Virus record (IMG/VR): IMGVR_UViG_3300042308_001934
Location: 1 to 40,638 of that record
Reading direction: 5' to 3' (one strand)
Length of the DNA: 40,638 bases
Source of the DNA: a virus
Part shown: piece by piece, positions 10,222-34,886 of the stretch
How positions within the stretch are numbered: position 1 is the first letter of the stretch
Layout of the letters: each line of letters begins with the position of its first letter
The notes under the pieces: generated by a model
Seen by the model: only the letters and a program-made list of their open reading frames with translations
Told to the model about the DNA's origin: nothing
Database searches by the model: none
Position numbers and translations under genes: made by a program

Positions 10222-10437
10222 ATGGTTATTCGATCATGGCGAAAAAAAGCAGGTGTCTCGGCAGCGCAACTGGCCGCGCTTGTTGGTGTGTCACAGCCGA
10301 TGATCTCGCTGTTAGAGACGGGCAGGCGCACCGCGAGTCCCAAGATGGCGCAGCGGATATCTGCCGTTACGGGCATACCCCCTGCTGAGATAATTTTTCA
10401 TTACCACACCATCCAACAGCCCGAGCCCGCCGCATGA
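10222..10437 (+). CDS. cro: Cro-like HTH regulator
   Basis: A 71-aa protein that is almost entirely one XRE-type HTH (residues 1-55: WRKKAGVSAAQLAALVGVSQPMISLLETGRR), with a short tail. It diverges from the CI-like gene and its recognition helix starts with the same VSQPMI, so both should read the same operators. No Shine-Dalgarno site precedes ATG 10222, and the inferred transcript start is about the same base, so the mRNA is probably leaderless. Confidence 0.78.
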   Translation: MVIRSWRKKAGVSAAQLAALVGVSQPMISLLETGRRTASPKMAQRISAVTGIPPAEIIFHYHTIQQPEPAA

Positions 10438-10537
10438 CTGGCCCGGCTTCAAATCTTTTCATTGCCCGACACATTCAGCGCTGCCTTGCGGACAGGGCGC
10501 ATCCGGGTTTCCAGCGCCGCAATGGCGTCAAGCGTGG

Positions 10538-10672
10538 TCGGGCGGGGAGTGCGGCCTGCAAGCCGTCCCTTGGAGTCACGTATGGAAGCCAAGTCCGCAC
10601 TCCTTCTCCCCGCCCGTCTGGGCGTTCACTCCCTCAACTGGGGCGCGCCGTCGCTGGTGCGCCCCGTTTTTT
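10538..10672 (+). ncRNA. Candidate structured RNA ending in an intrinsic terminator
   Basis: After the Cro-like stop no convincing gene is seen for about 435 bases. From about 10538 a long imperfect hairpin can form: CGGGCGGGGA...GTGCGG on the left pairs with CCGCAC...TCCCCGCCCG on the right (to about 10617). An inner CTTGG/CCAAG stem gives a rod with internal loops, loosely like 6S-type shapes. The terminator at 10640-10672 follows directly. It may be a small RNA or a structured 3' end of the cro transcript. Overlapping ORFs in this stretch read through the terminator and have poor composition. Confidence 0.4.
10640..10672 (+). terminator. Rho-independent terminator after the Cro-like gene
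   Basis: Seven-bp stem GGGGCGC / GCGCCCC (10640-10646, 10659-10665), 12-nt loop, then G and six T. It would separate the Cro-like gene from the rightward early operon, like lambda tR1. Confidence 0.85.
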
Positions 10673-10874
10673 GGGGCGGTCGCGCACAGGCAAACGGTTC
10701 AGGTCGGTCGGCCACCCCCGGCCTGATACCTGCCCCGCTGCAGATGGCTCCGTGAAGCGCGCCAAGGCTTCAAGGTAATGGCAGCGGGGCGGGTCCCTGA
10801 TGCCCGCCTCATAGTGTTTTCCTAACCCGCCGCCTCGGCTGCGAACATGAAAAAAATCAAGGGAGTATTTCCAG
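10673..10874. other. Leader before the CII-like gene
   Basis: About 200 bases without a convincing gene. A perfect 10-bp inverted repeat GCCCCGCTGC / GCAGCGGGGC (10732-10741 and 10781-10790, 39-nt loop) is the main structure. AGGGAG before 10875 is the ribosome site of the next gene. No clear -10/-35 pair stands out. Confidence 0.5.
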
Positions 10875-11306
10875 ATGATTACAGACACAAGGCTCTCGAT
10901 CCTGACCCGGACCCTGTTCGAAAGGGTCGGCAATCTTGAGGCGGTCAGTGCGATCACCGGCCTGAGTATGGGCCAATTATCCAAATGCCAGTCCCTGCCG
11001 GGTCCAGAGCGCGAGACCTCGGTCTTGTCGCTCAAGGCGATTATCCGGCTGGAGGAAATGCTTGGCGATCCGGTTATGACCGGGGCTCTGGCGGCCGATG
11101 TTCTGGCAGGGTCCAGTCGCGCGGAAAAATCGCTCCTGACCGAGGTATGCGAAATGGCCGAGGCGGCCAGCGACCTGCAAAGGGCGGTGCGGACCGCGCG
11201 CGACAAGCCCAGCCCAAATGAAAGGGCCGCTCTGGTCCGGCTATTGGATAAGGCCCAATCCGAACTGGACGATGTGCGCGCCAAATTGTCGGCTGTGGGG
11301 GGCTAG
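10875..11306 (+). CDS. CII-like regulator (phage CP76 type)
   Basis: A 143-aa protein that fits the phage CII/CP76 regulatory family. Its N-terminal half holds a helix-turn-helix (RVGNLEAVSAITGLSMGQLSKCQSLPGP, about residues 16-43) and a second helical part (LSLKAIIRLEEMLGDPVMT). The C-terminal half is an extended charged helix (ERAALVRLLDKAQSELDDVRAKL), suited to oligomerisation. In lambda-like phages such a protein activates lysogeny promoters; its place as the first gene after the cro terminator agrees. AGGGAG lies about 9 nt before the ATG. Confidence 0.7.
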   Translation: MITDTRLSILTRTLFERVGNLEAVSAITGLSMGQLSKCQSLPGPERETSVLSLKAIIRLEEMLGDPVMTGALAADVLAGSSRAEKSLLTEVCEMAEAASDLQRAVRTARDKPSPNERAALVRLLDKAQSELDDVRAKLSAVGG

Positions 11307-11311
11307 GGGCC

Positions 11312-11491
11312 ATGGCGCTGACCTTTGATCAGCTGGACGCCCAGGCCTGTCGCTGGCCGGTGGGATTGGATGAGGCCGCGGCGGCGCATCTGTTTTGCGG
11401 CGAGCCCTGTCAGTCTGGCAGTCCCTATTGCCCAGACCATCACCGCCTAGCGACGGAACCCTTGCGGAGGCTGGATCATGCAGACCGTTGA
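11312..11491 (+). CDS. GcrA-like C-terminal zinc peptide
   Basis: A 59-aa peptide. ACRWPVG, followed by FCGEPCQSGSPYCPDHHRLA, is the pattern of the C-terminal end of GcrA, the alphaproteobacterial cell-cycle regulator that binds RNA polymerase sigma70 and acts at methylated GANTC promoters. Cys13, Cys29, Cys33 and Cys40 plus two His could bind zinc. The N-terminal DNA-binding HTH of GcrA is absent. The role could be to bind or mimic the host factor's polymerase-interacting end, redirecting or blocking it (inference). It starts 5 nt after the CII-like gene and overlaps the next gene. Confidence 0.65.
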   Translation: MALTFDQLDAQACRWPVGLDEAAAAHLFCGEPCQSGSPYCPDHHRLATEPLRRLDHADR

Positions 11492-11678
11492 TATTCGCAT
11501 CCTGACCCCGGAAGACGAGATCAGCCTGACCAAGCGGGTGGGTCAGGATGGGGTGCTTTTGACGTTTGAAGGCCGGTGCAAGCAGACCAGCCTGACCGTG
11601 TCGCTCTCGGATGATCAGATCCAGCGCCTGCATGAGCGGATGCTGGATTTTAAGCGCAGGGGTCAGCGGCATGGATAA
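11478..11678 (+). CDS. Hypothetical 66-aa protein
   Basis: A 66-aa protein with an excellent ribosome site (GGAGG, 7 nt before the ATG), overlapping the end of the zinc-peptide gene and the start of the DnaA-like gene, so it is clearly part of the operon. The N-terminal part is beta-rich (VDIRILTPEDEISLTKRVGQ) and the end is a basic helix (RLHERMLDFKRRGQRHG). No family recognised. Confidence 0.65.
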   Translation: MQTVDIRILTPEDEISLTKRVGQDGVLLTFEGRCKQTSLTVSLSDDQIQRLHERMLDFKRRGQRHG

Positions 11679-12285
11679 GGCGCTCTTGAACATTATTGCC
11701 CAGGTTGCGGCGCGCCATCAGGTGCCGATCAAGGTCCTGATTGGGCCAAATCGCCTGCCCGAGGTCTGCCGGGTGCGGGGCGAGGCGATGGCGCAGGCCC
11801 GTATGGGCGGCGTTAAGATCGCCCAGATTGCCCAAGCCTTTGGCCGGGGCGAGGGGACAGTGTATTTGCTGCTTAAAAAACACCGCGATTATGTTGAGGC
11901 CACGACCGGGACCGCGCCGCCAAGGCCGCGCCATGGTCGGCAAAAGGGCGAGGTGCTGTCGCCAGAGGAAAAGGCCGAGATTGCGGCGGGTCGGCGGGCG
12001 GGTGTGTCCTATGCCAAGATTGCGCGGGCGCTGAATCGTCCGCTAAGAACCGTGGAAAATGCCGGGGCCGCGATCGTGAAGCGCGAATCTGCGCCCGGCG
12101 GCGGCAAGATCGAGCCCGCCATAGTGTTTAATCCCAAGACCGATGCGCGGTTTGTCGAGGCCGTGATGGCGGAAGGCGGCTATCCGGTTTTACGCTCCAC
12201 GACCCCGCCCAAAGACGATTGCACTGTGGCCCTCTATACCAAGGCCCTGATCGACCGCGCGCGCAGGCAGGCGGTGTTGCCGTGA
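11671..12285 (+). CDS. DnaA-domain-IV-like DNA-binding protein
   Basis: A 204-aa protein. The first 75 residues (IIAQVAARHQVPIKVLIGPN, then EVCRVRGEAMAQARM and AQIAQAFGRGEGTVYLLLKK) follow the pattern of DnaA domain IV, the HTH that reads DnaA boxes; the AFGRGEGTV box corresponds to the family's FGRDHSTV. A second HTH follows (EKAEIAAGRRAGVSYAKIARALNRPLRTVENA, about 103-135), then a basic C-terminal part. There is no AAA+ ATPase. Encoded just before the primase and helicase, it may recognise the phage origin or compete with host DnaA. AGGGG precedes ATG 11671. Confidence 0.65.
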   Translation: MDKALLNIIAQVAARHQVPIKVLIGPNRLPEVCRVRGEAMAQARMGGVKIAQIAQAFGRGEGTVYLLLKKHRDYVEATTGTAPPRPRHGRQKGEVLSPEEKAEIAAGRRAGVSYAKIARALNRPLRTVENAGAAIVKRESAPGGGKIEPAIVFNPKTDARFVEAVMAEGGYPVLRSTTPPKDDCTVALYTKALIDRARRQAVLP

Positions 12286-12998
12286 GCGGGCTGTTTGACG
12301 ATGTCCCGGAAACCGCCGTCGCAACGCCCTATCGCTTCACGTCGGGCGGGGCAGAGCGGCGCGATCGCGGCGGTATGGAGACGGACTATTATCCCACCCC
12401 GCCCTGGGCGACGCGGGCCTTGATGCGGATCTTGGCCCTCAATTCTGATTTTGGCCTCGGCAGTGTCTGGGAGCCCGCTTGCGGTGGCGGCCATATGGCC
12501 GAGGTCTTGGCCGAAAGCTTTCAATCGGTTCTGGCCACGGATCTGTATGATTATGGCTATGCGGGCCGGCAGGGCGATCTGATCGATTTTCTGTCGCCAG
12601 AGGCGGCAAGGCTGGGTCCGGTCGATTGGGTGATTACCAATCCGCCGTTTAAGCTGGCGGATGAGTTTATTCGGGTGGGGCTGGAGCGCGCGCGCGAGGG
12701 CGTGGCCGTCCTGTGCCGCCTGCAATTCCTAGAGGGCGTGAAACGCTCTGGCCTGCATTTTGACGGCAATGAGGTGGGGCAGGGGCTGAGCATTCTGGCC
12801 CCCTTTTGTGAGCGGGTGGCCATGGTCCGGGGCCGGTATGATCCGGCGGCCAGTACCAATATGGCCTATGCCTGGTTCATTTATTCGAAGGCCCCAGATC
12901 GGCGGCGGCGCTCGCCAGTGATCCTGCCGATCCTGCCCGGTGCGCGGGCGCAGTGCACCCAGCCGCATGACGCGATCAAGTTCGGAGCGGTGTCATGA
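12282..12998 (+). CDS. DNA N6-adenine-type methyltransferase
   Basis: A 238-aa SAM-dependent DNA methyltransferase. TDYYPTPPWATRALM precedes motif I (WEPACGGGHMAEVL), and the catalytic motif IV is TNPPF in DWVITNPPFKLADEF, typical of amino-methyltransferases that modify adenine (or N4-cytosine). No separate target-recognition domain is obvious. The start is GTG 12282, overlapping the previous stop as GTGA. With no endonuclease nearby it is an orphan enzyme; in an alphaproteobacterial phage, mimicking a host mark such as GANTC or protecting DNA are both possible. Confidence 0.82.
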   Translation: MSGLFDDVPETAVATPYRFTSGGAERRDRGGMETDYYPTPPWATRALMRILALNSDFGLGSVWEPACGGGHMAEVLAESFQSVLATDLYDYGYAGRQGDLIDFLSPEAARLGPVDWVITNPPFKLADEFIRVGLERAREGVAVLCRLQFLEGVKRSGLHFDGNEVGQGLSILAPFCERVAMVRGRYDPAASTNMAYAWFIYSKAPDRRRRSPVILPILPGARAQCTQPHDAIKFGAVS

Positions 12999-14191
12999 GC
13001 GCCGCCCCCGCCACAACAGACCTTAGGGCCCTATTCGACTCTGCGCGCGGTGTGGATATCGAGGCTGTGGCGGGGGTGCGGTTGTTCCGCGCCGGGCGGC
13101 GTTGGCGCGGGCCTTGTCCCTTGTGCGGGGCCAGTGCGGGCAAGAAGGCCGATGGGGCCTTTAGCGTCGATAAGGCGCTCGGCCTGTTCTGGTGTCATGC
13201 CTGTAATGAGCATGGTGACGTGATCTCGCTGGAGCGCGCCCTGCGCGGTGGCACGGCGCGTGAGGCGGCGGAGCGGTTAAGCGGCGGGTCTGTGGTGGCG
13301 TTTCGCCCGGCTGCGCCGCAAGCGCGCGCGACCAAGCCGGTCCAGGGCGGGACGCAGTTATCGGGGCGGCTGTGGGATCAGGCCTCGCCGCCGCCGCATC
13401 ATGATGGCCAAGGCGGGATGCATCCCTTGCGTCGGTATCTGCGCAGCCGGGGCCTGAGCGGGCCGTCTATGGATTCGGCCCTGATGCGATTGCGCTATCT
13501 GCCGCGCGCCTATTATGGGCCGGACCCGTTTGATGAGCCGATCTATCTGCCTGCCATGATTGCCCAGGTGGTGACCGAGGCGGGTCCGACGGGCGGGGTG
13601 CATCTGACCTATCTGGACCCCCTGCGCGGCTATGCCAAGACCCAGCTGAGGCCCGGCAAAAAGATGTTTGGGCCGCAAAATGATGCCGATGGCCGCCCCG
13701 GCGGGGTCTGGCTGGCGCGCCCGCGCGACGCGCGCGTCCTGGTGGTGGCGGAAGGCATTGAGACCGCCTTGGCGGCGGCAAGATTGCAGGGCCGGGCCTG
13801 TCACGTCTTGGCGGCGCTGAGCCTGAACCGCTTGCAGGGCGGGTGGCTTGCCGATCGATGGGGCCGCAAGAATCCCGACCTGGTCCAGGCCGATCCGGAT
13901 CAGCCCGCCGTGACCTGGGATGTGTCCGGGGCCGGGATCGATGAGGTCTTGATCGCCATTGACCGAGATATGAGCCCGATTGATGTGCCGGTGCGCGGGC
14001 CAACCGGGCGCACGGTCAAGCAATCGATCGACGGGGAAAAGCGCGCCGCGATCTGTGCCGGCCTAGCCGTGGCCGCATGGCGCGCCAGGCTGGGCGATGG
14101 CGTGACCGTGCGGGCCATAGCCCCGCCGCCGGGGCTGGATTTCAATGATGCCTTAAAACAAAAACTGACCCTGGGAGGGGTGGATGTCTGA
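12995..14191 (+). CDS. DNA primase (CHC2 zinc finger and Toprim)
   Basis: A 398-aa primase-type protein that would make RNA primers for phage replication. A zinc-binding CPLCGA...FWCHACNEHGD module (about residues 41-75) recognises DNA. The Toprim domain (about 245-365) has VVAEGIETALAAARL with the catalytic Glu, and LIAIDRDMS carrying the Asp pair. It overlaps the methyltransferase before it (ATGA) and the helicase after it by 8 nt, so the two replication proteins are made together. Confidence 0.9.
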   Translation: MSAAPATTDLRALFDSARGVDIEAVAGVRLFRAGRRWRGPCPLCGASAGKKADGAFSVDKALGLFWCHACNEHGDVISLERALRGGTAREAAERLSGGSVVAFRPAAPQARATKPVQGGTQLSGRLWDQASPPPHHDGQGGMHPLRRYLRSRGLSGPSMDSALMRLRYLPRAYYGPDPFDEPIYLPAMIAQVVTEAGPTGGVHLTYLDPLRGYAKTQLRPGKKMFGPQNDADGRPGGVWLARPRDARVLVVAEGIETALAAARLQGRACHVLAALSLNRLQGGWLADRWGRKNPDLVQADPDQPAVTWDVSGAGIDEVLIAIDRDMSPIDVPVRGPTGRTVKQSIDGEKRAAICAGLAVAAWRARLGDGVTVRAIAPPPGLDFNDALKQKLTLGGVDV

Positions 14192-15746
14192 GTATGGATT
14201 TGCGCCCGCGCCAGAAATTGGCGAGCTGGCGCGGTATGAGCTGAATGATTTTGGCAATGCCATGCGGTTTATTCGCCTTTGCGGCGGCCTGATCGATGAT
14301 GCGACCTATGAGATTGATAAGGCCCAGGCGCGGGTTCTGTATCTGCGCGGCAATGGCTGGATCGCTTTCAATGGGCGGCACTGGGACCTGGAGCATGGCG
14401 AGGCCATGGCCTATCGCATGGCCAGCCAGATGGCGCGGGGTCTAGTGGGGCAGATCAAGCACAAGATCGACAGTGGTGCCCAGACCGGCGGCAAGAGCGC
14501 GGTCGATGCCTATAAGTTCGCGACCGAGAGCGGCAATTCTGGCAAGATCAGTGCCACGCTGAAAATGGCCAGTAATTATCTGGATGTCGGGGTCGATGAT
14601 TTCGACCAAGACCCGATGAGCCTGAATGTCCTGAACGGCACCTTGCGGTTTGTGCGCGGCCCCGATGGTCTGGGGCGGGTGGTGTTTTTGGATCGCCATG
14701 ACCCCGCCGACCGCTTTACCCGGATCGCCAAAGCCCGCTGGAACCCAGAGGCGCGCGCGCCGGTGTTTGATGGCGTCCTTGCCTTTGCCCAGCCGGAAAT
14801 GGATATGCGGACCTATCTGCAGCGGGTGATGGGCTATTGCTCCACCGGGGATACGTCCGAACAAAAATTCTTTGTCTTTCAAGGCAAGGGCGGGGATGGA
14901 AAGTCGACCATTGTCGGGGCCGTGCGTGAGACGCTGGGCAGCTATGCCACCACGGTGGCGATAGAGACCTTTCTGGATACGGGCTTGCGGCGCGGCGGCG
15001 AGGCCAGCCCTGACATAGCCGCCCTGGCTGGCGATACCCGCCTTTTATCGTCCGGTGAGCCGCCGTCTGGGGCCAAGTTGGCGGCGGGGGCGATCAAGCA
15101 ATACACAGGCGGTGGCAAGATCAAGGCGCGCCAGCTGCGCGAGGCCTTGTTTGAGTTTGCCCCGGTCGGCAAGCCCCTGATCGAGTGTAATCGCAAGCCT
15201 TTGATCAATGACACCGATGACGGTATCTGGCGACGGCTCAAGATACTCTTATTCCGCAAACAGGTGCCGGAGGGTCAGAGGGATGGCCACCTGCCTGCCA
15301 AGCTCAAGGCTGAGGCCGATGGCATATTGGGCTGGCTGGTCGAGGGTGTGATCGGCTGGATGAATGAGGGCCTGATCGATCCGCAAGATGTGAAAGATGC
15401 GGTCGAGGACTATAGGCGCGGGGCCAATCCATTCGCGCAATGGATGCAGGATCGGCTCGAGATCGGGGCCGATTACAAGATCTCGGCCACCGAATTATTC
15501 GATGACTATAAGGCCTGGATGGATGCCGAGGGCCATGAAAAGCCCATGAGCCAAAAGGGCTTTGGCGCGGCCCTGGGCGATCAGCAAATCATTCTGGCGG
15601 GCAAGAATGCCCAGGGCAAGAAGATGCGCAAGGGCGCGCGCCTGAAGCCCAAGGGCGGCTCGGAAGGCTATGCGGCGGCGCGGGCAGGCGAGGGCGCTGT
15701 GTCCCCCGTTCTGGGCCATGATCAGGGGACAGACGAATGGGTCTAA
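14184..15746 (+). CDS. SF3/D5-type replicative helicase (P4-like)
   Basis: A 520-aa helicase of the phage/plasmid primase-P4 C-terminal family. A D5_N-type helical region (about 100-205) precedes the ATPase. Walker A is GKGGDGKS (about 233-240); the following segment LAGDTRLLSSGEP contains the Walker B-like strand, and LIECNRKPLINDTDDGIWRR is motif C with the arginine finger. The C-terminal 130 aa form a winged-helix-like tail with Lys-rich end. Such proteins unwind DNA at the origin; the iterons right after the gene are the natural site. Confidence 0.88.
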   Translation: MSEYGFAPAPEIGELARYELNDFGNAMRFIRLCGGLIDDATYEIDKAQARVLYLRGNGWIAFNGRHWDLEHGEAMAYRMASQMARGLVGQIKHKIDSGAQTGGKSAVDAYKFATESGNSGKISATLKMASNYLDVGVDDFDQDPMSLNVLNGTLRFVRGPDGLGRVVFLDRHDPADRFTRIAKARWNPEARAPVFDGVLAFAQPEMDMRTYLQRVMGYCSTGDTSEQKFFVFQGKGGDGKSTIVGAVRETLGSYATTVAIETFLDTGLRRGGEASPDIAALAGDTRLLSSGEPPSGAKLAAGAIKQYTGGGKIKARQLREALFEFAPVGKPLIECNRKPLINDTDDGIWRRLKILLFRKQVPEGQRDGHLPAKLKAEADGILGWLVEGVIGWMNEGLIDPQDVKDAVEDYRRGANPFAQWMQDRLEIGADYKISATELFDDYKAWMDAEGHEKPMSQKGFGAALGDQQIILAGKNAQGKKMRKGARLKPKGGSEGYAAARAGEGAVSPVLGHDQGTDEWV

Positions 15747-16029: not shown

Positions 16030-16548
16030 ATGACTGAGCAATCAAACAATCAAGCTGGTGGCCCTCGCTGGTATGTTGTTCAGTCCAAGCCTCAAGCCGA
16101 GCAGATGGCGGCAGCCAATCTTCGCAATCAAGGCTTTGAGGTCTATCTGCCCTTGGCGCTAATGATGGATCGCAAGTCCAAGCAACCCGTCGGTCGGCCC
16201 TTGTTTCCGCGCTATCTGTTTGTCCGGCTTGACCTGACCGTGGATCAATGGCGGGCGATCTTCTCGACTAAGGGAGTCCAGTGTCTGTTCTGTTCAGGTG
16301 GCGGTCGTCCCATCGCAGCAGGCGAGGCCTGCATCGCTAACATCCGGGTGCGTGAGACCGATGGCATAATCAATATGGTCGAGGTCAAGCCTGCGAGGGT
16401 CTTCGTCCCTGGTGAGCGGGTCAGGATCGATGACGGCGAGTTAGAGGGTATCTTCTGCGAACATGTTGACGAAAAGCGCGTTTTGATATTGCTTAACATC
16501 CTAGGCCGCGAATCGCGCGCCATTACGCACTCGGCCAGGCTCTCCTGA
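16030..16548 (+). CDS. NusG/RfaH-like transcription antiterminator
   Basis: A 172-aa NusG paralogue. The NGN domain (about 12-110) starts RWYVVQSKPQAEQMAAANL and contains PLFPRYLFVRLDL, a signature of NusG/RfaH proteins that bind the beta' clamp helices of RNA polymerase. The C-terminal part (VKPARVFVPGERVRIDDGEL to the end) is a KOW domain. By length and wording it is nearer the specialised RfaH type than housekeeping NusG. AGAAGGA lies 8 nt before the ATG. It sits between the replication genes and the 22-kb late operon, where lambda has Q, so it probably makes polymerase processive through the late genes. Confidence 0.88.
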   Translation: MTEQSNNQAGGPRWYVVQSKPQAEQMAAANLRNQGFEVYLPLALMMDRKSKQPVGRPLFPRYLFVRLDLTVDQWRAIFSTKGVQCLFCSGGGRPIAAGEACIANIRVRETDGIINMVEVKPARVFVPGERVRIDDGELEGIFCEHVDEKRVLILLNILGRESRAITHSARLS

Positions 16549-16564
16549 CCTCGAGTGCGGTAGC
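16526..16564 (+). promoter_or_regulatory. Hairpin plus ops-core-like element after the NusG-like gene
   Basis: Arms CGCACTCG / CGAGTGCG (16526-16533, 16552-16559) form an 8-bp hairpin across the NusG-like stop codon. At 16557-16564 stands GCGGTAGC, exactly bases 2-9 of the E. coli ops element (GGCGGTAGCGTG), the part that forms the small hairpin contacted by RfaH. This is a candidate loading site for the phage antiterminator. Confidence 0.4.
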
Positions 16565-16714
16565 CATCCCAGTGTACCCCTACAATCCCATCGCCCCCCA
16601 CCCTAGCGGGTCCTTCCTGCAGCCCCCCACCCAATACGGTCGGGCAGAGGCCGGGGGTCCGTTAGTTTTGGTTACTTTTTATTTTTGAACCTTTTGAACT
16701 TTGTGAAGGTGCCT
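16565..16714. other. Leader of the late operon; terminator-like and possible cos region
   Basis: No gene. Runs of C and G (cccccc 16623-16628 with ggggg 16653-16657, inner ccc/ggg) can form a GC-rich hairpin followed by T-rich sequence (16664-16688), a weak terminator candidate. Because the terminase is lambda-type, the cohesive-end site is expected here too, just before the small subunit gene; I cannot point to the cut. Confidence 0.35.
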
Positions 16715-17350
16715 GTGTCCGAATATGTGATCAGTGCCGAGTTCGCGAGGCTGCACAATGTCGGTGCGCCCGCTGTTTCAAACTGGAAAAAGCGCGGGCT
16801 TTTGGTGTTCGTACAGGACCCGGCAAATCCGCGCCGCCAGCTGATCGATGTGGCCAAGTCGAACCTGTTGGTCGGCGGTATGGTTGATCCGAACAAGGGC
16901 AGGCCGACTGCGGCGTCTATGCGGGCGACGGCCTCGGCGGTGCCGCCTGCGAGCGCTGAGCCATTCTTGGCCGCCGCCCAGGATAGCGAATTACAGCGTG
17001 AGCGGTTGCGAGAGCTGCGGGCGCGAACCAGCCGCCGGGAAATGGAAAATGACAAGCTGGCCGGTGAGCTGGTTATTGTCTCCGAATTTGAGCGCCGGGC
17101 AAGCGATCTGGGTCGGCAGGCGCGGGAACGGATCCAGAGCGCCTTTCGGCTGGAGTCAGAGCGGCTTGCCGCCGAGACCGACCCGCGCACGGTCCAGGTC
17201 CTTTGTGCCGCCTTAATCGACCAGACGTTTGAATCCCTTGCCGACCAGATCGAGGCTGAGGCCCGCGCCGAGACCGAGATCGACCAGGCGCTTGCCGCCA
17301 TCAATGAGGCTGACCCCATGCTTGATTTGGACCAAGTCGCCGCCGCATGA
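16715..17350 (+). CDS. Terminase small subunit (Nu1-like)
   Basis: A 211-aa DNA-recognition subunit of the packaging motor. The N-terminal 50 residues (VISAEFARLHNVGAPAVSNW followed by KKRGLLVF and RRQLIDV) are a Nu1-type winged helix that binds the cos region. A Pro/Ala linker and a long coiled-coil-like helical part (RERLRELRARTSRREMENDK) follow, ending in an acidic tail for contact with the large subunit. GTG 16715 is chosen because GAAGG lies 5 nt upstream; in-frame TTG or GTG codons to 16685 are less well placed. Overlaps the large-subunit gene by 4 nt. Confidence 0.85.
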   Translation: MSEYVISAEFARLHNVGAPAVSNWKKRGLLVFVQDPANPRRQLIDVAKSNLLVGGMVDPNKGRPTAASMRATASAVPPASAEPFLAAAQDSELQRERLRELRARTSRREMENDKLAGELVIVSEFERRASDLGRQARERIQSAFRLESERLAAETDPRTVQVLCAALIDQTFESLADQIEAEARAETEIDQALAAINEADPMLDLDQVAAA

Positions 17351-19485
17351 GCCTAGCGGTTCTGGACCGGTATAATCCGGCCATTCAAAAACACCTTTTG
17401 GCCAATGCGGCCCGGATCAATCGATCCTTTGCCACGGGCCTGCGCCCGCCGGAAAAGCTATCGGTCTCGGACTGGGCCGGGCGCTATCGCAGGTTTTCGG
17501 ATGACAGCGCCTATCCCGGCCCCTGGCGTCATGCCACCGCGCCCTATCTGGTCGAGATTATGGACCGGCTGAGCCCGCATGATCCGGCTGAAACCATATC
17601 GATCCTGAAATGCGCCCAGTCCGGCGGCTCGGCCAGTGCTGAAAACTGGGTCGGCTATATTGCCGATATTGCCCCTGGCCCATTGATGTATGTCCAGGCC
17701 ACGATTACCGCGGCCAAGGACTGGTTAGCCGAAAAACTCTGGCCCATGGTCGAGGCCACGCCAAGGCTTAATCCCGACCTGACCGGCGCGATCATGGGGC
17801 GCAAGTCCCGCGACGGGGATGGCACCACGGCGCTGCGTGTGCGGTTTCGCAAGGGCTCTTGGCTCTTGATCGCCGGGGCCAATTCCGCCGCCACACTGCG
17901 CGCCCACTCGATCCGCTATGTGGTCGAGGATGATCTAGACCAGTTTCCAGACGATTTGGACAATCAAGGCAGTCCAGAGGGCATGGTCACGGCCCGCCAG
18001 CGGGTCTATGCCCGCCAAGGCCTGTCCAAGCGGCTTAAGATTTCGACCGGCACCATTAAGGGCGCATCCAAGATTGGCCGGGCCTATGAGGCGTCTGACC
18101 AAAGACGGCTCTATCTGCAAAGCCCCCATAGCGGCCAATGGTTCGATCCAGTGTTTTCGGACATAGTCTGGCCCAGTGACCAACCCACCAAGGCCTATAT
18201 GCTGGACCCGACCTGCGCTGGGCTGGTGATCGAGCATTATCAAAAACAAGACCTGTTACAGACCGCGCTCTGGATCCCGACGGCTGAAACCGAAACCCCT
18301 GACGGCGAGAAAATGCGCCCGCCGCGTACTATTCCAGACGATCAGATCACGCACTGGCGCACCCGGCCCATGGGCGGGCTGCAGCCGGGCTATCATATTA
18401 CCGGCATCATCAGTTCGTTTCTGACCTGGTCACAGCTGGCAACCGGCTTTGTCGCCGCCCAGGGCAATGTCAATGCGCTCAAGACCTGGACCAACCTGGA
18501 ACTTGGTGAGCTGTTTGAATACAAGGGCGATGCCCCGCCCGCCGAGTCCCTTGAAATCCTGCGCGAGCAAGACTGGGGCAGGGGGCAGGTGCCATGGGGG
18601 CCATGCGTCTTTACCATGGGCTGCGACATCCAGGGCGACGGGATCTATTATCTGACCAATGGCCATGGCCCGGAGTCCGAGACCTGGTGCCTAGATTTTG
18701 GCTTCCTGCCCGGCCCGACCGATGTCCCCGGCCAAGGCGCTTGGCTGAGACTGGATGAGCTGGTGCGGCGGGGCCTGACCCTGCCCGGCGGCAAGACTCT
18801 AGAGATTGATCAGGTCTGTGTTGATGCGGGTTATCACACCGAGTCGGCCAAGGCCTTTTGCAAGGGCCACCCTAATCGCATGCCGGTTTTTGGCAGGCCG
18901 GGCTGGTTTAGACCCCTGCTAGGGCGCGGTGAGGCCACCCAATACATTAGCCGCGGCCGCCGCGCTGGCCGGGCAACGGGCAAGGCCGATGACAAGGCTT
19001 TTCTGGTCGGCACCTTTGGCGCCAAGGCGACATTTTACGGCTATGTCCGCGCCAGCCTCAAGGCGGCAGAGGCCCGCGCCCGGGGAGAGACCCCCGGAGA
19101 GATCCGCGGGCGCTTACATTTTGGCCGCGAGGCCGATGCCAATCTGTTTGGTCAGCTGACCTCCGAAACCTGCGTGACCGAGACCACCCCGTCGGGCATC
19201 CCCGCCCGGGTCTGGAAGGTGATTTCGGGGCGGCAAAATCACTGGCTGGACTGCGCAATCTATAGCATGGCCGCAACCGAGGCCCTGCGCCTTGATGGCC
19301 TATCCCATGCCCGCTGGGGCCAGCTGCAGGCTGAACGCTGCGCGGCCCTCGATCCCGCCCAGGGCGACCTGGTCCAATTGATGCGCCAGCCCGCCGCCGC
19401 CGAGACCCCGCCCGCGCGCCCCGCGAATCCGGTTCGCGATACGTCCGAGCCCTGGATCAAGTTAGAAAATAAGGATTGGTTTTAA
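17347..19485 (+). CDS. Terminase large subunit (GpA family)
   Basis: A 712-aa packaging ATPase and nuclease of the lambda gpA family. The family start SVSDWAGRYRRFSDDSAYPGPW is clear; the ATPase follows, with a degenerate Walker A at ILKCAQSGGSASAENW and Walker B at RYVVEDDLDQFPDD. The C-terminal half (FTMGCDIQGDGIYY; DQVCVDAGYHTE; HWLDCAIYSMAATEAL) is an RNase H-like nuclease, with Asp residues placed to bind metal. It would cut concatemers at cos and drive DNA into proheads. Confidence 0.95.
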   Translation: MSLAVLDRYNPAIQKHLLANAARINRSFATGLRPPEKLSVSDWAGRYRRFSDDSAYPGPWRHATAPYLVEIMDRLSPHDPAETISILKCAQSGGSASAENWVGYIADIAPGPLMYVQATITAAKDWLAEKLWPMVEATPRLNPDLTGAIMGRKSRDGDGTTALRVRFRKGSWLLIAGANSAATLRAHSIRYVVEDDLDQFPDDLDNQGSPEGMVTARQRVYARQGLSKRLKISTGTIKGASKIGRAYEASDQRRLYLQSPHSGQWFDPVFSDIVWPSDQPTKAYMLDPTCAGLVIEHYQKQDLLQTALWIPTAETETPDGEKMRPPRTIPDDQITHWRTRPMGGLQPGYHITGIISSFLTWSQLATGFVAAQGNVNALKTWTNLELGELFEYKGDAPPAESLEILREQDWGRGQVPWGPCVFTMGCDIQGDGIYYLTNGHGPESETWCLDFGFLPGPTDVPGQGAWLRLDELVRRGLTLPGGKTLEIDQVCVDAGYHTESAKAFCKGHPNRMPVFGRPGWFRPLLGRGEATQYISRGRRAGRATGKADDKAFLVGTFGAKATFYGYVRASLKAAEARARGETPGEIRGRLHFGREADANLFGQLTSETCVTETTPSGIPARVWKVISGRQNHWLDCAIYSMAATEALRLDGLSHARWGQLQAERCAALDPAQGDLVQLMRQPAAAETPPARPANPVRDTSEPWIKLENKDWF

Positions 19486-19673
19486 TGGCCTCGGATTACG
19501 CCGCCAAGATCGCTGCTCTTGAAGACGCCCTAGCCGCTGGCGAATTGACCGTCGAGGCAAATGGCGAGCGCGTCACCTATCGCTCCGTGGCTGAGATCAA
19601 GGACGCAATCAACTATATGCGCGCCCAGATGACGCGCGCGCCACAGACCACCTTTGCGGTCTTCGACCGATGA
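19485..19673 (+). CDS. gpW-like head-completion protein
   Basis: A 62-aa protein placed between terminase and portal genes, as lambda W is. The pattern ALEDALAAGELTVEANGERVTYRSVAEIKDAINYM matches the small alpha/beta gpW fold with its central hairpin. It would join the portal vertex after packaging. ATG 19485 overlaps the terminase stop (TAATG); the next gene overlaps it in turn. Confidence 0.8.
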   Translation: MASDYAAKIAALEDALAAGELTVEANGERVTYRSVAEIKDAINYMRAQMTRAPQTTFAVFDR

Positions 19674-21220
19674 GTTTTATCGATTCCCTTGTTGGGTTCT
19701 TTGATCCCAAGGCGGGCTTTCAGCGCCGGTCCTATCGCAATGCCCTGGCCTTGGTGTCTAGCGCGGCCCAGACGCGGCGCTATGATGCGGCGAGGCTAGA
19801 TCGCCGCACCCAAAACTGGATGACCTCCGCCGCCAGCGCGGATATGGAAGTCTGGCGCGATCTGCCCCGGATGCGCGACCGCTGCCGCGATCTGGTCCGT
19901 AACAATCCTTACGCGCAGGCCGGAATCACCGCCCTTGTCGCCAATCTGGTTGGCGATGGGATAGAGGCCCGTGCCGAACATTCCGACGAGCGCCTAGCCG
20001 AGGCGGCGCAGAGGGCGTGGAACAACTGGGCCGATCATCCGGTCGATGGCCGTAACAATTTCTATAGCCTGCAATCGCAAGTGGTCCGGGCCACGGTCGA
20101 GGGCGGCAATGGGCTGCTGGTCTGGTCCAGCGATGGAAAGATGATCAATAATCGGGTGCGCGCCCTCGAGGGCGACTGGCTTGATCATACCCGCACCCAG
20201 GAACTGGCCAATGGCAACCGGGTGATTCATGGTATCGAGACCGACCCGAGCGGAAACAGGGTCTCCTATCATTTGTTACAGCGCCATCCGGGCGATGTTC
20301 TTGGCGGCATTGGTGGCACGATCAGCCTTGATGGTCAGCCGCCGAACACAGTCGGCCTTTATGGATCCAAGCCTGTACCGGCGGCAGATGTTGATCATGT
20401 CTATCGCTGTGACCGAATCGGCCAGTCGATGGGGGTGCCGTGGCTGGCCCAGGCCGTGTCGGCGCTCTACTATATCGGCGAGCTGAATGATGCGACCTTG
20501 CAGAAGAAGCGGGTCGAGGCGTGTCTGGCTCTTATTCGTCGCCCGTCTTTGGATGATGGCCTTTCCTCGATTGGCGAGAAAGAAACCCAGTCCAATGGTC
20601 AGGTCTGGGAGACCCTGCGCCCCGGCGGCATCTACACCGCCCGTCCCGGAGAAGAAATCAGCGTAGTTAATCCCTCAAGTTCGGGCGATGGTGATGTCTT
20701 TATTCGGCGGCAACTGGAAGCGGTCGCGGCCAGTCTTGGCGTTCCATATCATCTGCTGACCGGCGATGTTAGCCAGGCCAATTATTCTAGCCTGCGCGCG
20801 GCGACCGTCGCATTCTGGGCGCTTTTGGATGACTGGCTGGCCCATACGGTCGTGCCTCACGTCTGCGACCCGGCTTGGAAGCGGATCATGCAGCGCGAGG
20901 CGCTGGTTCAGAAAGAACCCAGGCTGGTCGAGGTCACAGCGTCCTGGACGCCGCCGCCACGCGCCTGGGTCGATCCAGAAAAAGACATCAATGCCGAGAT
21001 CAAGGCGATCCGTTCAGGCCTGACCACCATGTCCGAAAGTCTGTCCAGTCGAGGCCGCAACTGGCGCGACCAGATCAGTCAGATCGCCACATTCAACACC
21101 GCCGCCGATGCCGCTGACCTGGCGCTCGATACGGACCCACGCCGGATTGACGCCCGTGGCCAGATTCAGCCCCCGACCGGTTTCATTCGCCCGACCGCCA
21201 TTGGCGATACCAACCCCTAG
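19670..21220 (+). CDS. Portal protein (lambda gpB family)
   Basis: A 516-aa lambda-type portal that would form the dodecameric ring for DNA entry and exit. Hallmarks are MRDRCRDLVRNNPYAQAGI near residues 65-85, the central VYRCDRIGQSMGVPWLAQAV, and PYHLLTGDVSQANYSSLRAA at about 365-385. A closing IRSGLTTMSESLSSRGRNW is the usual C-terminal element. Length fits the family (about 500). Confidence 0.93.
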   Translation: MSFIDSLVGFFDPKAGFQRRSYRNALALVSSAAQTRRYDAARLDRRTQNWMTSAASADMEVWRDLPRMRDRCRDLVRNNPYAQAGITALVANLVGDGIEARAEHSDERLAEAAQRAWNNWADHPVDGRNNFYSLQSQVVRATVEGGNGLLVWSSDGKMINNRVRALEGDWLDHTRTQELANGNRVIHGIETDPSGNRVSYHLLQRHPGDVLGGIGGTISLDGQPPNTVGLYGSKPVPAADVDHVYRCDRIGQSMGVPWLAQAVSALYYIGELNDATLQKKRVEACLALIRRPSLDDGLSSIGEKETQSNGQVWETLRPGGIYTARPGEEISVVNPSSSGDGDVFIRRQLEAVAASLGVPYHLLTGDVSQANYSSLRAATVAFWALLDDWLAHTVVPHVCDPAWKRIMQREALVQKEPRLVEVTASWTPPPRAWVDPEKDINAEIKAIRSGLTTMSESLSSRGRNWRDQISQIATFNTAADAADLALDTDPRRIDARGQIQPPTGFIRPTAIGDTNP

Positions 21221-21230
21221 AGGTCTTAAA

Positions 21231-23249
21231 ATGCCAGACAAAAACCTGCCTAAGGGCTTTCAGCCTGGGGCCATAGCGCGCCGCGATCTGGGCATTGCCC
21301 CGGCCAGCTATAGCGCCAATGCCCACACGGTCGATGCCGTGTTTTCGACCGGCGCGCGCGTACTGCGATATTACGGTTTTGAGGAATTAGGGGTATCGCC
21401 GGACAATGTCGATCTGGGCCGGGTCAGGGCCGGTCAGGTCAAGCTTTTAGATAGCCATAATGCCAGCACGATCGAGTGCCTGCTCGGCTCGGTTACAGAT
21501 GTTCGGTTCGAATCCGGCGCGATTGTCGGAACGCTTGCCTTTGCCCAGACCGAAGAGGGTATGGCCGCCGAGGCCATGGTCGCGCGCGGCGAGCTCACCG
21601 GCCTGTCTATTGGTTATGCCATCAAGGCCATGGAAAAGGTTGGAGTCGAGGACAGCACGGATGTCTGGCGCGCCACCCGCTGGGAACTTTGCGAGGTCTC
21701 GTTTGTTACCGTCCCCGCCGATCCCTCGGCCCAGGTGCGCGGCCTGACCGTCGATCCCGAAGACCAAGACTCTGCCGCCCCTGAATCCGCCGCCGCTCCG
21801 GCCCCGGAACCAGACGCGATGGACCCCCTCAACCAAGTCTCTGCCGACGAGGGCGGCGAACCGGACCCAGTGTCCGAATCTGACCCCAAAAACCCACAAC
21901 CTAATCTTGAAACAGAGGAATCCCGGCTCATGCCTGTAAGAACAGAGGCCCCCGTGGCCGCCCCCGTTGCTCCGGCTTTGTCGGCCCTTGAGGCCCTCGA
22001 ACTGACCGGACAGGCCCGCAATCTTGGTGTAGGCACCGAGATTGAAGACCTTATCCGCGCCGATGCCAGCCTTAGCGCCGATCAGGTCCGTCACCAGATC
22101 GTCAGCCTCGCCGCCACGGCCCAGGCTGAACGCCAAGCCATTCCCGCCGGTAGTGCCGCCGTCATCACCCGCGACGGCTTTGAAACTGAAGGCGCGCGGG
22201 TGACCGATGCCCTGATCGCCCGCATGACCGGCAAGGGCCCTTCGGATAGGGGCCGCGAATTCATGGGCTACCGCGCAGTTGAGCTGCTCGCTATGCGAAT
22301 GGGGCTTGATCCGCGCCAAGGCGTGGTGGATCCGTCCGGAATTATCAGCCGGGCCATGCACACGACCAGCGACTTCCCGCTCCTGACCGAGGCTGCGGCC
22401 AATAAGGTTCTGCTCGAGGCTTACGGTATTGCCGCTCCGACTTATCGCAACTGGGCCAAGCAGATCGCTTTTAACGATTTCAAGGTCCACAGACTGATGC
22501 GGCTTGGCGATTTTCCGGCCTTGTCGCAACTGCCGGAGTCTGGCGATATTAGCGGCGGCACCCTGTCAGAAAATCGTGAAACCGTCACCCCGGTCACAAG
22601 CGGCGTTGTGGTGCCATTTTCTCGCCAGCTGCTGATGAATGACGATCTGGCGGCCTTTGGAAGCCTGGTCACCCAGGCGGGTTATGAGGCCGCCCGAACG
22701 GAAAATGCCATGGCCTATGCCTTGCTGGCCCTCAATTCGGGCGCTGGCCCCACCATGTCCGACACCGGGGCGCTGTATAACAATACGGTAGTCACGACGG
22801 CGGGTGGTCATGCGAATTTGGGCACCGCGGCGGCGATCAGTACCGATTCCTTGGGACTGGGCCGCGCAGCCATGCGCAAACAGCGGGGCATTGGCGGCGT
22901 CCAGATCCTGAATCTGGCCCCCTCCATCCTATTGGTTGGTCCTGATCGCGAGACCTTGGCCCAGCAGGTGGTGGCTCCGATTCAGGCCGTCCAGGCTGGC
23001 AATGTTCCGGTGTTTTCAGGTACCTTGCAGGTGATTGTCGATGCCAATATCACCGGCAATGCTTGGTATCTGTTTGCCGATCCTGCCTTCGCACCGGCCT
23101 TTGTCTATGGCTATGTCGCCGGGCAAAGCGGTCCCCAGATTGCTACAGGCGGCGTGTTTAATCAGGACGGTATCATGATGCGCGTTCTGCATGACTTTGG
23201 TTTCGGCGCGTCGGACTGGCGGCCAACCTATCGCAACGCTGGCGCTTAA
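21231..23249 (+). CDS. Fused prohead protease and major capsid protein
   Basis: One 673-aa reading frame holds both functions. Residues 1-190 are an HK97-type prohead protease: VKLLDSHNASTIECLLGSVT contains the catalytic His, and RGELTGLSIGYAI the catalytic Ser; EVSFVTVPADPSAQV closes the domain. An acidic Pro/Ala linker (about 190-233) leads to the HK97-fold capsid protein, whose scaffold-like delta region and core (SFDFPLLTEA-like motif TSDFPLLTEAANK, then DFPALSQLPESG) are clear. AGAGGTC lies 9 nt before ATG 21231. Fusion means cleavage or internal starting is needed to make free capsid subunits. Confidence 0.92.
   Translation: MPDKNLPKGFQPGAIARRDLGIAPASYSANAHTVDAVFSTGARVLRYYGFEELGVSPDNVDLGRVRAGQVKLLDSHNASTIECLLGSVTDVRFESGAIVGTLAFAQTEEGMAAEAMVARGELTGLSIGYAIKAMEKVGVEDSTDVWRATRWELCEVSFVTVPADPSAQVRGLTVDPEDQDSAAPESAAAPAPEPDAMDPLNQVSADEGGEPDPVSESDPKNPQPNLETEESRLMPVRTEAPVAAPVAPALSALEALELTGQARNLGVGTEIEDLIRADASLSADQVRHQIVSLAATAQAERQAIPAGSAAVITRDGFETEGARVTDALIARMTGKGPSDRGREFMGYRAVELLAMRMGLDPRQGVVDPSGIISRAMHTTSDFPLLTEAAANKVLLEAYGIAAPTYRNWAKQIAFNDFKVHRLMRLGDFPALSQLPESGDISGGTLSENRETVTPVTSGVVVPFSRQLLMNDDLAAFGSLVTQAGYEAARTENAMAYALLALNSGAGPTMSDTGALYNNTVVTTAGGHANLGTAAAISTDSLGLGRAAMRKQRGIGGVQILNLAPSILLVGPDRETLAQQVVAPIQAVQAGNVPVFSGTLQVIVDANITGNAWYLFADPAFAPAFVYGYVAGQSGPQIATGGVFNQDGIMMRVLHDFGFGASDWRPTYRNAGA
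21914..21932 (+). promoter_or_regulatory. Possible internal ribosome site for the capsid part
   Basis: AGAGGAA (21914-21920) lies 9 nt before an in-frame ATG at 21930 (Met234, MPVRTEAPVA), at the end of the acidic linker. Starting here would give a 440-aa capsid protein without the protease. Confidence 0.45.
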
Positions 23250-23269
23250 GCCTCTGGTTGAACCCTTCA

Positions 23270-23292
23270 TCCGGCGGTGAACAGCCGCCGGA
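23270..23292 (+). other. Hairpin between capsid and cement genes
   Basis: Perfect 8-bp stem TCCGGCGG / CCGCCGGA with a 7-nt loop and no U-tract. It may protect the 3' end of the capsid message or set relative output of the next gene. Confidence 0.6.
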
Positions 23293-23314
23293 CCAATCCA
23301 AAAAGGACTGTGAG

Positions 23315-23656
23315 ATGAAAAACTGGATTTCCGATGGAAATAATATTTCCATGATCGCCCCTGCTGCCACCGTCTCGGGTGTCGCGCAACAGCTATCAAG
23401 CGGCATTGTTGCCGTGCCAGCCTCGACCGTAGCCTCCGGGGCCTTGTGCTCGTTTTCAGTCAAGGGCGTCTTTAGCGGCCTGACCAAGACCACGGGCGAG
23501 GCCTGGACCGTAGGGCAGAAACTGTACTGGCTTGCGGCCAATAGCCGGTTCACGACCACGGCGGGGTCCAATGGCGCGGCGGTTGCCTTTGCCGTCACCG
23601 CCGCCGCCGCTGCGGACACTTCCGGCACTGTCTGCCTGGTCGGAGCCCTGACCTAA
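23315..23656 (+). CDS. Capsid cement/decoration protein (DUF2190 type)
   Basis: A 113-aa protein, Ala/Val/Thr-rich and beta-strand-rich, matching the DUF2190 capsid cement pattern (ISDGNNISMIAPAATVSGVA start; GVFSGLTKTTGEAWTVGQKLYW; final SGTVCLVGALT). Such proteins sit on the outside of the mature head and stabilise it. The start is ATG 23315 with AAAGGA about 9 nt upstream. Flanked by hairpins at 23270-23292 and 23666-23697. Confidence 0.78.
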   Translation: MKNWISDGNNISMIAPAATVSGVAQQLSSGIVAVPASTVASGALCSFSVKGVFSGLTKTTGEAWTVGQKLYWLAANSRFTTTAGSNGAAVAFAVTAAAAADTSGTVCLVGALT

Positions 23657-23665
23657 CGTCAAGAC

Positions 23666-23697
23666 GGCCACAATCGGCGCTCTGTCCGGTTGTGGCC
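23666..23697 (+). other. Strong hairpin after the cement gene
   Basis: Twelve-bp stem GGCCACAATCGG / CCGGTTGTGGCC with one G-T wobble and an 8-nt loop. Only two T follow, so it is more likely an attenuator or RNA-stability element than a full terminator; the tail genes lie beyond it. Confidence 0.6.
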
Positions 23698-23723
23698 TTC
23701 CGCCGCAGGAGTGTAAAACCCAG

Positions 23724-24071
23724 ATGACCCCGGCCCAGAGACTTGTTGCCGCAAAATATGCCAGCGCCTTGGCTGAGCCTGCGGTCTGGACTCCGTTCGG
23801 TACCAGCCTGGCCATAAGTGTGCGGATCTTCCGCAGCCAGCCCGAAGAGGCGATCAGCCTTGAGGGTTTTGGGGCCAAAACCATCGCCAGTACAATCATC
23901 CGGCTGCGTGTGGGGGATACGAGGGACCAGAACCGCCTGCCCAGGGCTGGCGACCGCTTTGTGATTTCAGACGGTATCACCACCCAGGCGCTTATCAGTT
24001 TTGGCAGCCCCCGATATTTTGATGCCAAACAATTGGAATGGCGGATCGAGGCGAGCCATGAGCAAGTTTAA
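23724..24071 (+). CDS. Head-tail joining protein
   Basis: A 115-aa protein in the position of lambda FII/gp head-tail adaptors: after the cement protein and before the tail genes. Beta-rich segments (LAISVRIFRSQPEEAISLEG, IIRLRVGDTRDQ) and RAGDRFVISDGITTQALIS suit a small beta-barrel adaptor. AGGAG is about 13 nt upstream. The call rests mainly on position and length. Confidence 0.55.
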   Translation: MTPAQRLVAAKYASALAEPAVWTPFGTSLAISVRIFRSQPEEAISLEGFGAKTIASTIIRLRVGDTRDQNRLPRAGDRFVISDGITTQALISFGSPRYFDAKQLEWRIEASHEQV

Positions 24072-24798
24072 CGTCAAGCTTTCGGTCGATGGCGCGCCAA
24101 ATGCCGATCTCGCCATGGCCTTTCAAGGTCGCCTGACCGAGGTCTTGGCCGCCGATCACGATCGTCTTGCCCTCGCCTATCAGGCCAGCGCCAAGCAGGT
24201 GGCCGATCGCTACAAAAAAGAACTGCGCGCCGACATTGTGGCGGGCGGCTTTTATCGGGCCGCCGCCCTGTCCAAGACCTGGCGGGTCAATGTCTTTCCC
24301 CTCAAACCACACCTGGAACCCGCGATTTTTATCAAGTCCAATGCCGATGTGATCTTGGATGCCTTCAGCTATGGAGCCCAGATTCAGGCAAGGGGCGGCA
24401 AATATCTTGCCATTCCCACTGGCCCGGCCAAGGCCATTGTCCGCCGCATGAATCAGGCGAGGAATCGGTCGCGTAATGCTTTTGGAAAATTCATGACCGA
24501 AGAAAGCCCGGTTGCTCGGGTCGCTGCGACCCTTGGGGTGCATCTGGTGCCCAGAATCGATTCTGCGTCAGGGCGCGGCGTTTTGATCGCAGACACTGCG
24601 ACCGGAGGCCTTAGCCTCACGCGAGGCGGACGCGAGGCCAAGCGCCAGAGCAAGCCGACCGCGCTTTTTGTTCTGGTCAAGGCCGCCAGCTTAAAAAAGC
24701 GCATCAAGGGTATGGGCTTGCTGGAAGACTTAAAGGGCCGATTTGCCAGTGATTTTGCCGCTGCTGTGGCGCGCAATCTGCAGGCGGGCAAGACGTGA
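24058..24798 (+). CDS. Phage tail-completion-type protein (DUF6441-like)
   Basis: A 246-aa protein, Lys/Arg/Ala-rich. LAYQASAKQVADRYKKELRAD is a helical start; KSNADVILDAFSYGAQIQAR and KYLAIPTGPAKAIVRR resemble a family often annotated as DUF6441 in alphaproteobacterial phages. It stands where lambda Z (tail completion, needed to finish tails) stands. It overlaps the gene before by 14 nt and the one after (GTGA), so expression is coupled. Confidence 0.55.
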   Translation: MSKFNVKLSVDGAPNADLAMAFQGRLTEVLAADHDRLALAYQASAKQVADRYKKELRADIVAGGFYRAAALSKTWRVNVFPLKPHLEPAIFIKSNADVILDAFSYGAQIQARGGKYLAIPTGPAKAIVRRMNQARNRSRNAFGKFMTEESPVARVAATLGVHLVPRIDSASGRGVLIADTATGGLSLTRGGREAKRQSKPTALFVLVKAASLKKRIKGMGLLEDLKGRFASDFAAAVARNLQAGKT

Positions 24799-25259
24799 CC
24801 ACAAAACGCGAACTGATCCTGCAGGCCCTGGTGGCTCGGCTGGCGACCGATTCCGGCTTTCCGCCAGCCGATCTGGATGTGCCCGAGCCTACGGGCTGGT
24901 CGCCCATGAGCGGGGCCAGTCAGGGCCTTAGCCAGACTCTCGCCGTCCAGGACGGGCCGGTCACGGTCACGCGCGATGCGGGCGGCGCGGATGACTACGA
25001 GCTCGAGCTTGAGGCCATGATCGCCTATGCGGTCGAGGGGCTGGATGTTGCCGCCCGCCGCGCCGCCCGCGATAGCGCTATCGAAAGGATTGTTGCCCTG
25101 ATCTCCGCCAACCGCTCGCTCGGACTGGGGGTCCAGACCTATGCCGAGATCAGCGGGGCCGAGCGCGATGATCGAACCTTGAGCCCGGGTGCGCCCCCGG
25201 TCGCCATGGCCCTGATTTCGGTGCTTGTCACCTTTATTGCCCCATCCCCCGCCGGTTAG
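24795..25259 (+). CDS. Tail terminator-like protein (gpU position)
   Basis: A 154-aa protein starting at GTG 24795 in a GTGA overlap. KRELILQALVARLATDSG is the family-like first helix; later strands (LELEAMIAYAVEG and PVAMALISVLVTFIAP) fit the alpha/beta fold of tail terminators. Position between the completion protein and the tail tube is that of lambda U, which caps the tube and sets where heads join. Confidence 0.6.
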   Translation: MTTKRELILQALVARLATDSGFPPADLDVPEPTGWSPMSGASQGLSQTLAVQDGPVTVTRDAGGADDYELELEAMIAYAVEGLDVAARRAARDSAIERIVALISANRSLGLGVQTYAEISGAERDDRTLSPGAPPVAMALISVLVTFIAPSPAG

Positions 25260-25283
25260 TCCGGCAAGATCAAGGATCAGCCA

Positions 25284-26261: not shown

Positions 26262-26262
26262 C

Positions 26263-26850
26263 ATGCGGATTGATAAGAACCCGGCGGCTCCTGCGCCGCA
26301 TGAACTGATCGCCGGTGTGGTCTGGACACTGCGACCCATAACCGGGCCAATCAAGCTGGCGGTCGAGGCCAAGGTGCAACGGCGGATGGCGGCCCTGCGT
26401 GAGGGCCGGGGTGCGCTTGAGGCCATGGGCTTTGATGGTGACGATTTTGGAATCCTCAAGGATCCAGAAATACTCTTTGGACTGTCTATGTTTGAGGCCG
26501 CCTGCTGCTTTGCTCAGGCCCTGCTGGTCGAATGGACCGGGCTTGAGGATGAGGCCGGGCAGGCTCTGGCCCTTAACGAAGACAATATCCGAGCGGCCTT
26601 GAACTTTTCACCCGATGGCGGCGCGCCGGTCCTGTTGTCGCCCTTCATTGCCCTGATCGACGGACCCCGCTGGACGAGGCAAGCTGAGGGAAACGGCTCC
26701 GCGCCCTTGCCGAATGGGTCTTTGGTGGGGGCGCAGACCACTGTGCCGGATGCGCCCATGTCGGCGCAGGGTGCGCCACGGGCGGCCAAGACGAGGGCGG
26801 CGCGGCCTGTCCCCAGATCATCAACGAACCCCGCACGGCCCCCGGAATAG
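26263..26850 (+). CDS. Tail assembly chaperone, short form (G-like)
   Basis: A 195-aa protein read in the normal frame. Its N-terminal 140 residues are folded in style (PHELIAGVVWTLRPITGPIK; EILFGLSMFEAACCFAQALL), while the last 50 (from about residue 145) are low-complexity Pro/Ala/Arg and look like read-out after the frameshift point. In siphoviruses such chaperones coat the tape measure during tail assembly. The start ATG 26263 lies directly after the tail tube stop. Confidence 0.75.
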   Translation: MRIDKNPAAPAPHELIAGVVWTLRPITGPIKLAVEAKVQRRMAALREGRGALEAMGFDGDDFGILKDPEILFGLSMFEAACCFAQALLVEWTGLEDEAGQALALNEDNIRAALNFSPDGGAPVLLSPFIALIDGPRWTRQAEGNGSAPLPNGSLVGAQTTVPDAPMSAQGAPRAAKTRAARPVPRSSTNPARPPE

Positions 26851-34876: not shown

Positions 34877-34886
34877 GCGCGGCGTC

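Follow-up and report, generated by a model that had tools for sequence, protein, structure and literature searches.

What could a NusG/RfaH-like gene do in a phage when it occupies the slot of lambda Q and is followed directly by the core of the E. coli ops element? The question was raised by the virus record IMGVR_UViG_3300042308_001934, of which the whole stretch of 40,638 nt was analyzed (hereafter, the window). Its gene content is that of a temperate phage with a lambda-like arrangement; the host is most likely an alphaproteobacterium, and the phage is not a coliphage. Pfam and PHROGs assignments (Table 1) place the NusG-like gene between the replication and packaging genes, in agreement with the sequence-only reading, which had seen a NusG/RfaH-type protein in the place of Q. 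The same order of replication genes, NusG-like gene and terminase was found in phages with other packaging machinery, and three unrelated TerL families stand beside the cassette of gene and site across phages.

Table 1. Annotated and candidate features of the window; a slash marks the putative cos cut.
Feature	Position	Strand	Basis
Integrase	1249-2433	-	Pfam and PHROGs
Repressor-like HTH	9768-10145	-	Pfam and PHROGs
Early operon: HTH (Cro-like, 10222), CII-like regulator (10875), primase, D5-type helicase	10222..15746	+	Pfam and PHROGs
RfaH-type NusG paralogue gene, 172 aa; NGN ~13-110, KOW ~125-168	16030..16548	+	PF02357, phrog_6386, TIGR01955 below cut-off
RNA hairpin over the stop codon, up to the ops octamer; possible pause hairpin	16526..16559	+	Fold energy
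Candidate ops-like loading site TGCGGTAGCCAT; octamer GCGGTAGC at 16557-16564	16556..16567	+	Comparison with ops12
cosQ-like GGGTCCTTCC	16608..16617	+	Lambda right end has GGGTCCTTTCC
Putative cosN, cut TACG/GTCGGGC at 16638/16639	16635..16650	+	Start of contig L005, compared with the lambda cut
Terminase small subunit (TerS), first gene of the late operon	16685..17350	+	phrog_57, E 1.1e-18
Terminase large subunit (TerL), GpA type	17347..19485	+	PF05876, PF20454, phrog_15
Remaining late operon: portal, capsid/protease, tape measure, J-like fibre, endolysin (38053), holin (38524)	19670..38940	+	PHROGs

Profile searches and fold prediction bore out the assignment of the protein to the NusG/RfaH type. 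It matched the NGN domain of Pfam family NusG (PF02357, E 4.3e-19, over the gathering score) and the PHROGs family phrog_6386, annotated as 'transcription antiterminator' (2.7e-21). The best NCBIfam model was TIGR01955 (RfaH) with 109 bits; since the equivalog cut-off of 144.5 was not reached, the protein is named RfaH-like rather than RfaH. The LoaP and UpxY models scored 31.7 and 59.1 bits, below their cut-offs of 125 and 100 bits, and no Q family was present among the Pfam, PHROGs or NCBIfam matches. The top PDB match was RfaH (6e-12). An AlphaFold2 model (pLDDT 83.8) was matched by Foldseek to RfaH (8phk, E 1.9e-9) and to the RfaH NGN domain (8pib, rmsd 2.0 A); its C-terminal KOW domain was modelled as a beta barrel (strands 130-167, with Foldseek matches along the chain), the orientation of the domains being uncertain. 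By sequence and predicted fold, the protein is thus nearest to RfaH and NusG.

At the level of single residues, RfaH K10, F56, T72, I93, F130 and R138 are kept in the window protein, and E48, H20 and R73 are replaced by R, N and K, respectively. Across the phage proteins, F56 and T72 are found in 11/11, and a lysine stands at the K10 position, where NusG has Y, in seven. Autoinhibition of E. coli RfaH, which confers its dependence on ops, involves an alpha-helical KOW domain, residues E48, I93 and F130, and an E48-R138 bridge; with R in place of E48 and the KOW modelled as a beta barrel, autoinhibition of this type is not evident here.

The octamer behind the gene, GCGGTAGC, starts 8 nt past the stop codon, i.e., on the ninth base, and comparison with the published ops12, GGCGGTAGCGTG (PMC5995543), verified the earlier statement that it is identical to positions 2-9. 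The 12-nt element is not matched in full, as TGCGGTAGCCAT differs from it at positions 1 and 10-12. All known contacts of RfaH (loop G4-A7, C3:G8, T6) fall inside the conserved octamer, and, at the sequence level, 10 of the 11 phages have the core needed for a C3:G8 hairpin that exposes G5 and T6. In E. coli ops, T11 is required for pausing, and its change strongly impairs RfaH action (PMC5995543). Position 11 of the phage sites is A, G or C (A or G in most) and not T, so pausing must differ from that at E. coli ops; we infer that an RNA hairpin may supply the pause in place of T11.

Gene and site were compared across relatives by alignment-based searches, which were required because scans with single proteins returned near copies only or nothing; no close homologue was found in GenBank phages. 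Searching by protein only yielded 11 distinct phage genes, ten of them with the site. The octamer lies within 200 nt after the stop codon on the sense strand in these ten and in 29 of 91 alphaproteobacterial homologues, where about 0.02 of 11 and 0.4 of 91 loci would be expected by chance in the same DNA, and it was absent upstream of the gene and in antisense at all 11 phage and 91 alphaproteobacterial loci. Formal P values overstate the significance of these counts because the rows are related, the phage set amounting to about seven independent lineages. In a 210-nt stretch that surrounds the stop codon and extends behind it, GCGGTAGC is the most widely shared 8-mer in phages and alphaproteobacteria alike, and in most phage homologues it starts 8 nt past the stop. 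The reverse search, a blind exact scan of 2.9 million viral contigs with the 16-nt GAGTGCGGTAGCCGTT, gave nine matches, four of which lie directly behind a NusG-like gene with the octamer 8 nt past the stop. The same four loci were recovered by protein alone and are therefore not an artefact of the DNA search.

The protein tree unites nine phage proteins, including that of the window, in one clade (SH-aLRT 89-92). The sequence-only reading had made its proposal depend on the element standing beside homologous NusG-like genes, and in this clade it does so in 9/9 cases: TGCGGTAGCC is found at the gene's stop down to ~35% protein identity in otherwise unrelated genomes; gene and site are inherited together. 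L006, the closest of the distinct relatives, encodes a protein 65% identical to that of the window, and its leader is far more conserved than the flanking coding DNA. L016 and L017, with ~40% identical proteins and unrelated DNA around them, carry TGCGGTAGCCGTT at the stop codon; these two and L138 have no surrounding DNA in common with the window and keep TGCGGTAGCC. Among the loci found by the protein-only scan, the site lies 8 nt behind the stop in L138; L141/L142 have GGCGGTAGC at 47 nt, and L143 is without it. The site was detected in two of six members of a sister phage group, in 0/13 of a third group located beside other genes, and in a single case (L154) among ~20 distinct, more distant phage NusG-like genes (L147-L176). 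As these distant genes mostly lack the site, the pairing is a property of one subset of the NusG-like genes of phages and not of all.

Some side observations concern the same loci. Between L006 4681-5500 and window 16030-16900, sharp divergence affects the NusG gene and, in TerS, the N-terminal part that binds DNA. The leader between these two genes and the flanks are 90-97% identical, a pattern of mosaic exchange to either side of the ops/cos leader. L158-L176 form a separate phage NusG-like group without the octamer, in which the next genes look ParB-like in translation. The sister phages L143 (after 638) and L150 (after 5483), which have no octamer, both carry TCGGGAAT(T)CCGTGC some 90 nt beyond the NusG-like stop; it may serve as cos or as a different loading site.

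Alphaproteobacterial RfaH-like genes, some of which lie in envelope/EPS loci, include 29 (L023, L047-L126) with their own ops-like site. These 29 resemble the phage cassette in combining gene, hairpin 5' of the site and octamer, and several sites match E. coli ops 2-12 fully. They differ in the distance of the site from the stop (43-145 nt) and in its consensus, TTCACCCGGACTGCGGTAGCRTGG, and the phage proteins form a clade of their own. A terminase was looked for near the alphaproteobacterial genes and not found.

The RNA hairpin preceding the window octamer has a predicted energy of -19.5 kcal/mol (z -2.8). A hairpin ending at the octamer was found in 10/10 phage sites (mean z -2.6, controls -0.45) and in most cellular sites (mean z -3.0, controls -0.27); its sequence varies across sites and the octamer is fixed. 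No Rfam family matched 16400-16800, which includes the leader, at E values up to 5, and a promoter scan between the NusG-like gene and TerS found none. The GC-rich, terminator-like hairpin described downstream of the octamer in the sequence-only reading did not hold up as a terminator: the fold of 16590-16690 is no better than that of shuffled sequences (z -0.23), and the region holds the lambda cosQ sequence GGGTCCTT. The cosQ-like GGGTCCTTCC is found near TerS in the window, L006, L016 and L138, and thus only in phages with a GpA-type terminase. A relative's contig, L005, begins exactly at 16639, at a position matching the lambda cosN cut, which we take to be TTACG/GGGCGG (left end from the literature; the right end was compared here). 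The window thus has both cos elements expected with a GpA terminase, cosQ GGGTCCT and cosN upstream of TerS, the cosN cut being placed from one contig end. Because of the cosQ sequence and the L005 start, the supposed terminator is better read as mainly, and probably, a cos site. Folding against shuffles revealed no significant terminator between the site and the late genes in the window; L016, L017, L137 and L138 do have terminator-like hairpins (z -2.9 to -5.9), at 30-60 nt beyond the site, that of L138 with a U5 tail (T tract).

Several other explanations of the locus were weighed. The octamer could be a chance match, and counts in the window alone would allow this: three copies are present, where shuffled sequences have 1.28 +/- 1.18 and reach that number in 15 cases out of 100. 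The two other copies (22267 on the minus strand, 31814 on the plus strand) lie in coding sequence, the former being missing from L006, and were set aside as sites. The earlier claim that the octamer is unlikely by chance therefore fails within the window and stands on the comparison with relatives, where the phage and alphaproteobacterial counts far exceed expectation, upstream and antisense copies are absent, and the reverse scan led back to NusG-like genes; chance is thereby refuted, its remaining probability being negligible. Alternatively, the leader might be a cos packaging site only, into which the octamer falls by chance, and the NusG-like protein might act elsewhere. The cosQ sequence and the cosN-like cut do lie 50-90 nt downstream of the octamer, and the leaders of the window and L006 are ~95% identical throughout, cos included, but L017, L127, L129, L131, L135 and L142, which lack cosQ and have other terminases, keep the octamer after the gene, as do bacterial genes without a nearby terminase. 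We regard this explanation as very improbable.

It is also conceivable, yet rather improbable, that hairpin and octamer form an RNA-level regulator of the gene itself, either an attenuator or an RNA site of the LoaP/put kind, instead of an ops-type DNA site. The upstream hairpin is as conserved as the octamer, and LoaP, a NusG paralogue, acts at RNA hairpins. Against this, the octamer is fixed while the hairpin sequence changes freely, it coincides exactly with the core that RfaH contacts in its complex with ops, and the protein scores 109 bits with RfaH against 32 with LoaP. Finally, the octamer may be a loading site for a factor that works mainly in the RfaH manner, opposing Rho and recruiting ribosomes in its own and neighbouring genes, and not as a late switch. 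RfaH in the cell works mostly through exclusion of NusG/Rho and activation of translation (PMC7819879), and the window has no clear terminator after the site; however, all annotated cases have the site 5' of the packaging/late operon, and strong terminator-like hairpins follow it in sister phages. This explanation appears unlikely, though it deserves consideration.

Taken as a whole, the comparisons make it likely that the phage RfaH-like factor loads at the ops-like site and enables RNA polymerase to traverse the late operon. If the factor works as RfaH does (PMC5995543, PMC7819879), polymerase coming from the early/replication operon would pause just after the gene, helped by the abutting RNA hairpin, and the exposed non-template strand would form a small ops DNA hairpin (C3:G8, loop GGTA). 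The newly made protein would bind this hairpin and the beta' clamp, displacing host NusG, and would stay on, so that polymerase could pass terminators and Rho and transcribe cos and the 22-kb late operon. As the site lies 3' of its own gene, late transcription would wait for the protein to build up. The loss of T11, the changes at R73, H20 and E48 and the lack of a significant terminator after the site in the window speak against such a switch. A broader proposal, about which we are evenly divided, is that these loci represent an undescribed class of late-gene switch, in which Q has given way, in phages whose packaging systems are unrelated, to a mobile cassette consisting of an RfaH-like factor, a pause hairpin, an ops-core site and a terminator. 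Loading would depend on the RNA hairpin rather than on the E. coli consensus pause, and the factor would work without fold-switching autoinhibition.

Compared with E. coli RfaH/ops, the phage pair has the same ingredients, a NusG paralogue with NGN and KOW domains and, at the head of a long operon, a leader site whose octamer includes every ops base read in the RfaH-ops structure. It differs in being phage-encoded, with the gene directly before its own site and phage late genes as the apparent target, in a protein below the RfaH equivalog cut-off that does not keep E48 and R73, and in the replacement of ops T11/G12, with an RNA hairpin abutting the site. With lambda Q (and the Q proteins of 21 and 82) it shares the slot between replication and late genes and, as inferred here, processive antitermination, whereas the protein has no Q family match and Q itself loads at a promoter-proximal qut site. 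LoaP, UpxY, TaA and ActX are likewise NusG paralogues whose genes lie within or close to the operons they target, but they are not phage late regulators, and the protein is far under the LoaP and UpxY cut-offs.

Phage NusG-type proteins are already in databases, namely phrog_6386 and the RfaH/NusG-annotated A0A6J5MAV8 and A0A6J5PZH6 of uncultured Caudovirales; in searchable sources, no ops site or late-switch role is attached to them. No published phage RfaH/ops late switch was found in a search that covered few subscription papers or preprints. Known examples of phage processive antitermination are lambda N and Q, HK022 put and Xp10 p7. That the gene-plus-site pair recurs in unrelated phages suggests that phage late genes can be turned on in a way not described before; if this is true, a phage-borne NusG paralogue with its own loading site would be a further antitermination route, and RfaH/ops would be more than a virulence device of enterobacteria, namely an old mobile module that phages have in common with alphaproteobacteria. 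How NusG paralogues are recruited when they are encoded inside their own operons has been stated as unknown, and rfaH-like genes on prophages have been mentioned only as a sign of transfer (PMC7593976); here, a candidate loading site of such a paralogue can be read from the sequence and tested with small parts.

Two further elements were observed in the early part of the window. Positions 10605-10679 (plus strand), after the Cro-like gene, match the alphaproteobacterial sRNA family suhB/mmgR (RF00519) with an Rfam score above gathering, and a strong terminator stands at the end of this copy. The non-coding stretch 15748-15972, 5' of the NusG-like gene, contains direct and inverted copies of ACAGACCATA that are kept in L006 and look like an iteron origin or operator.
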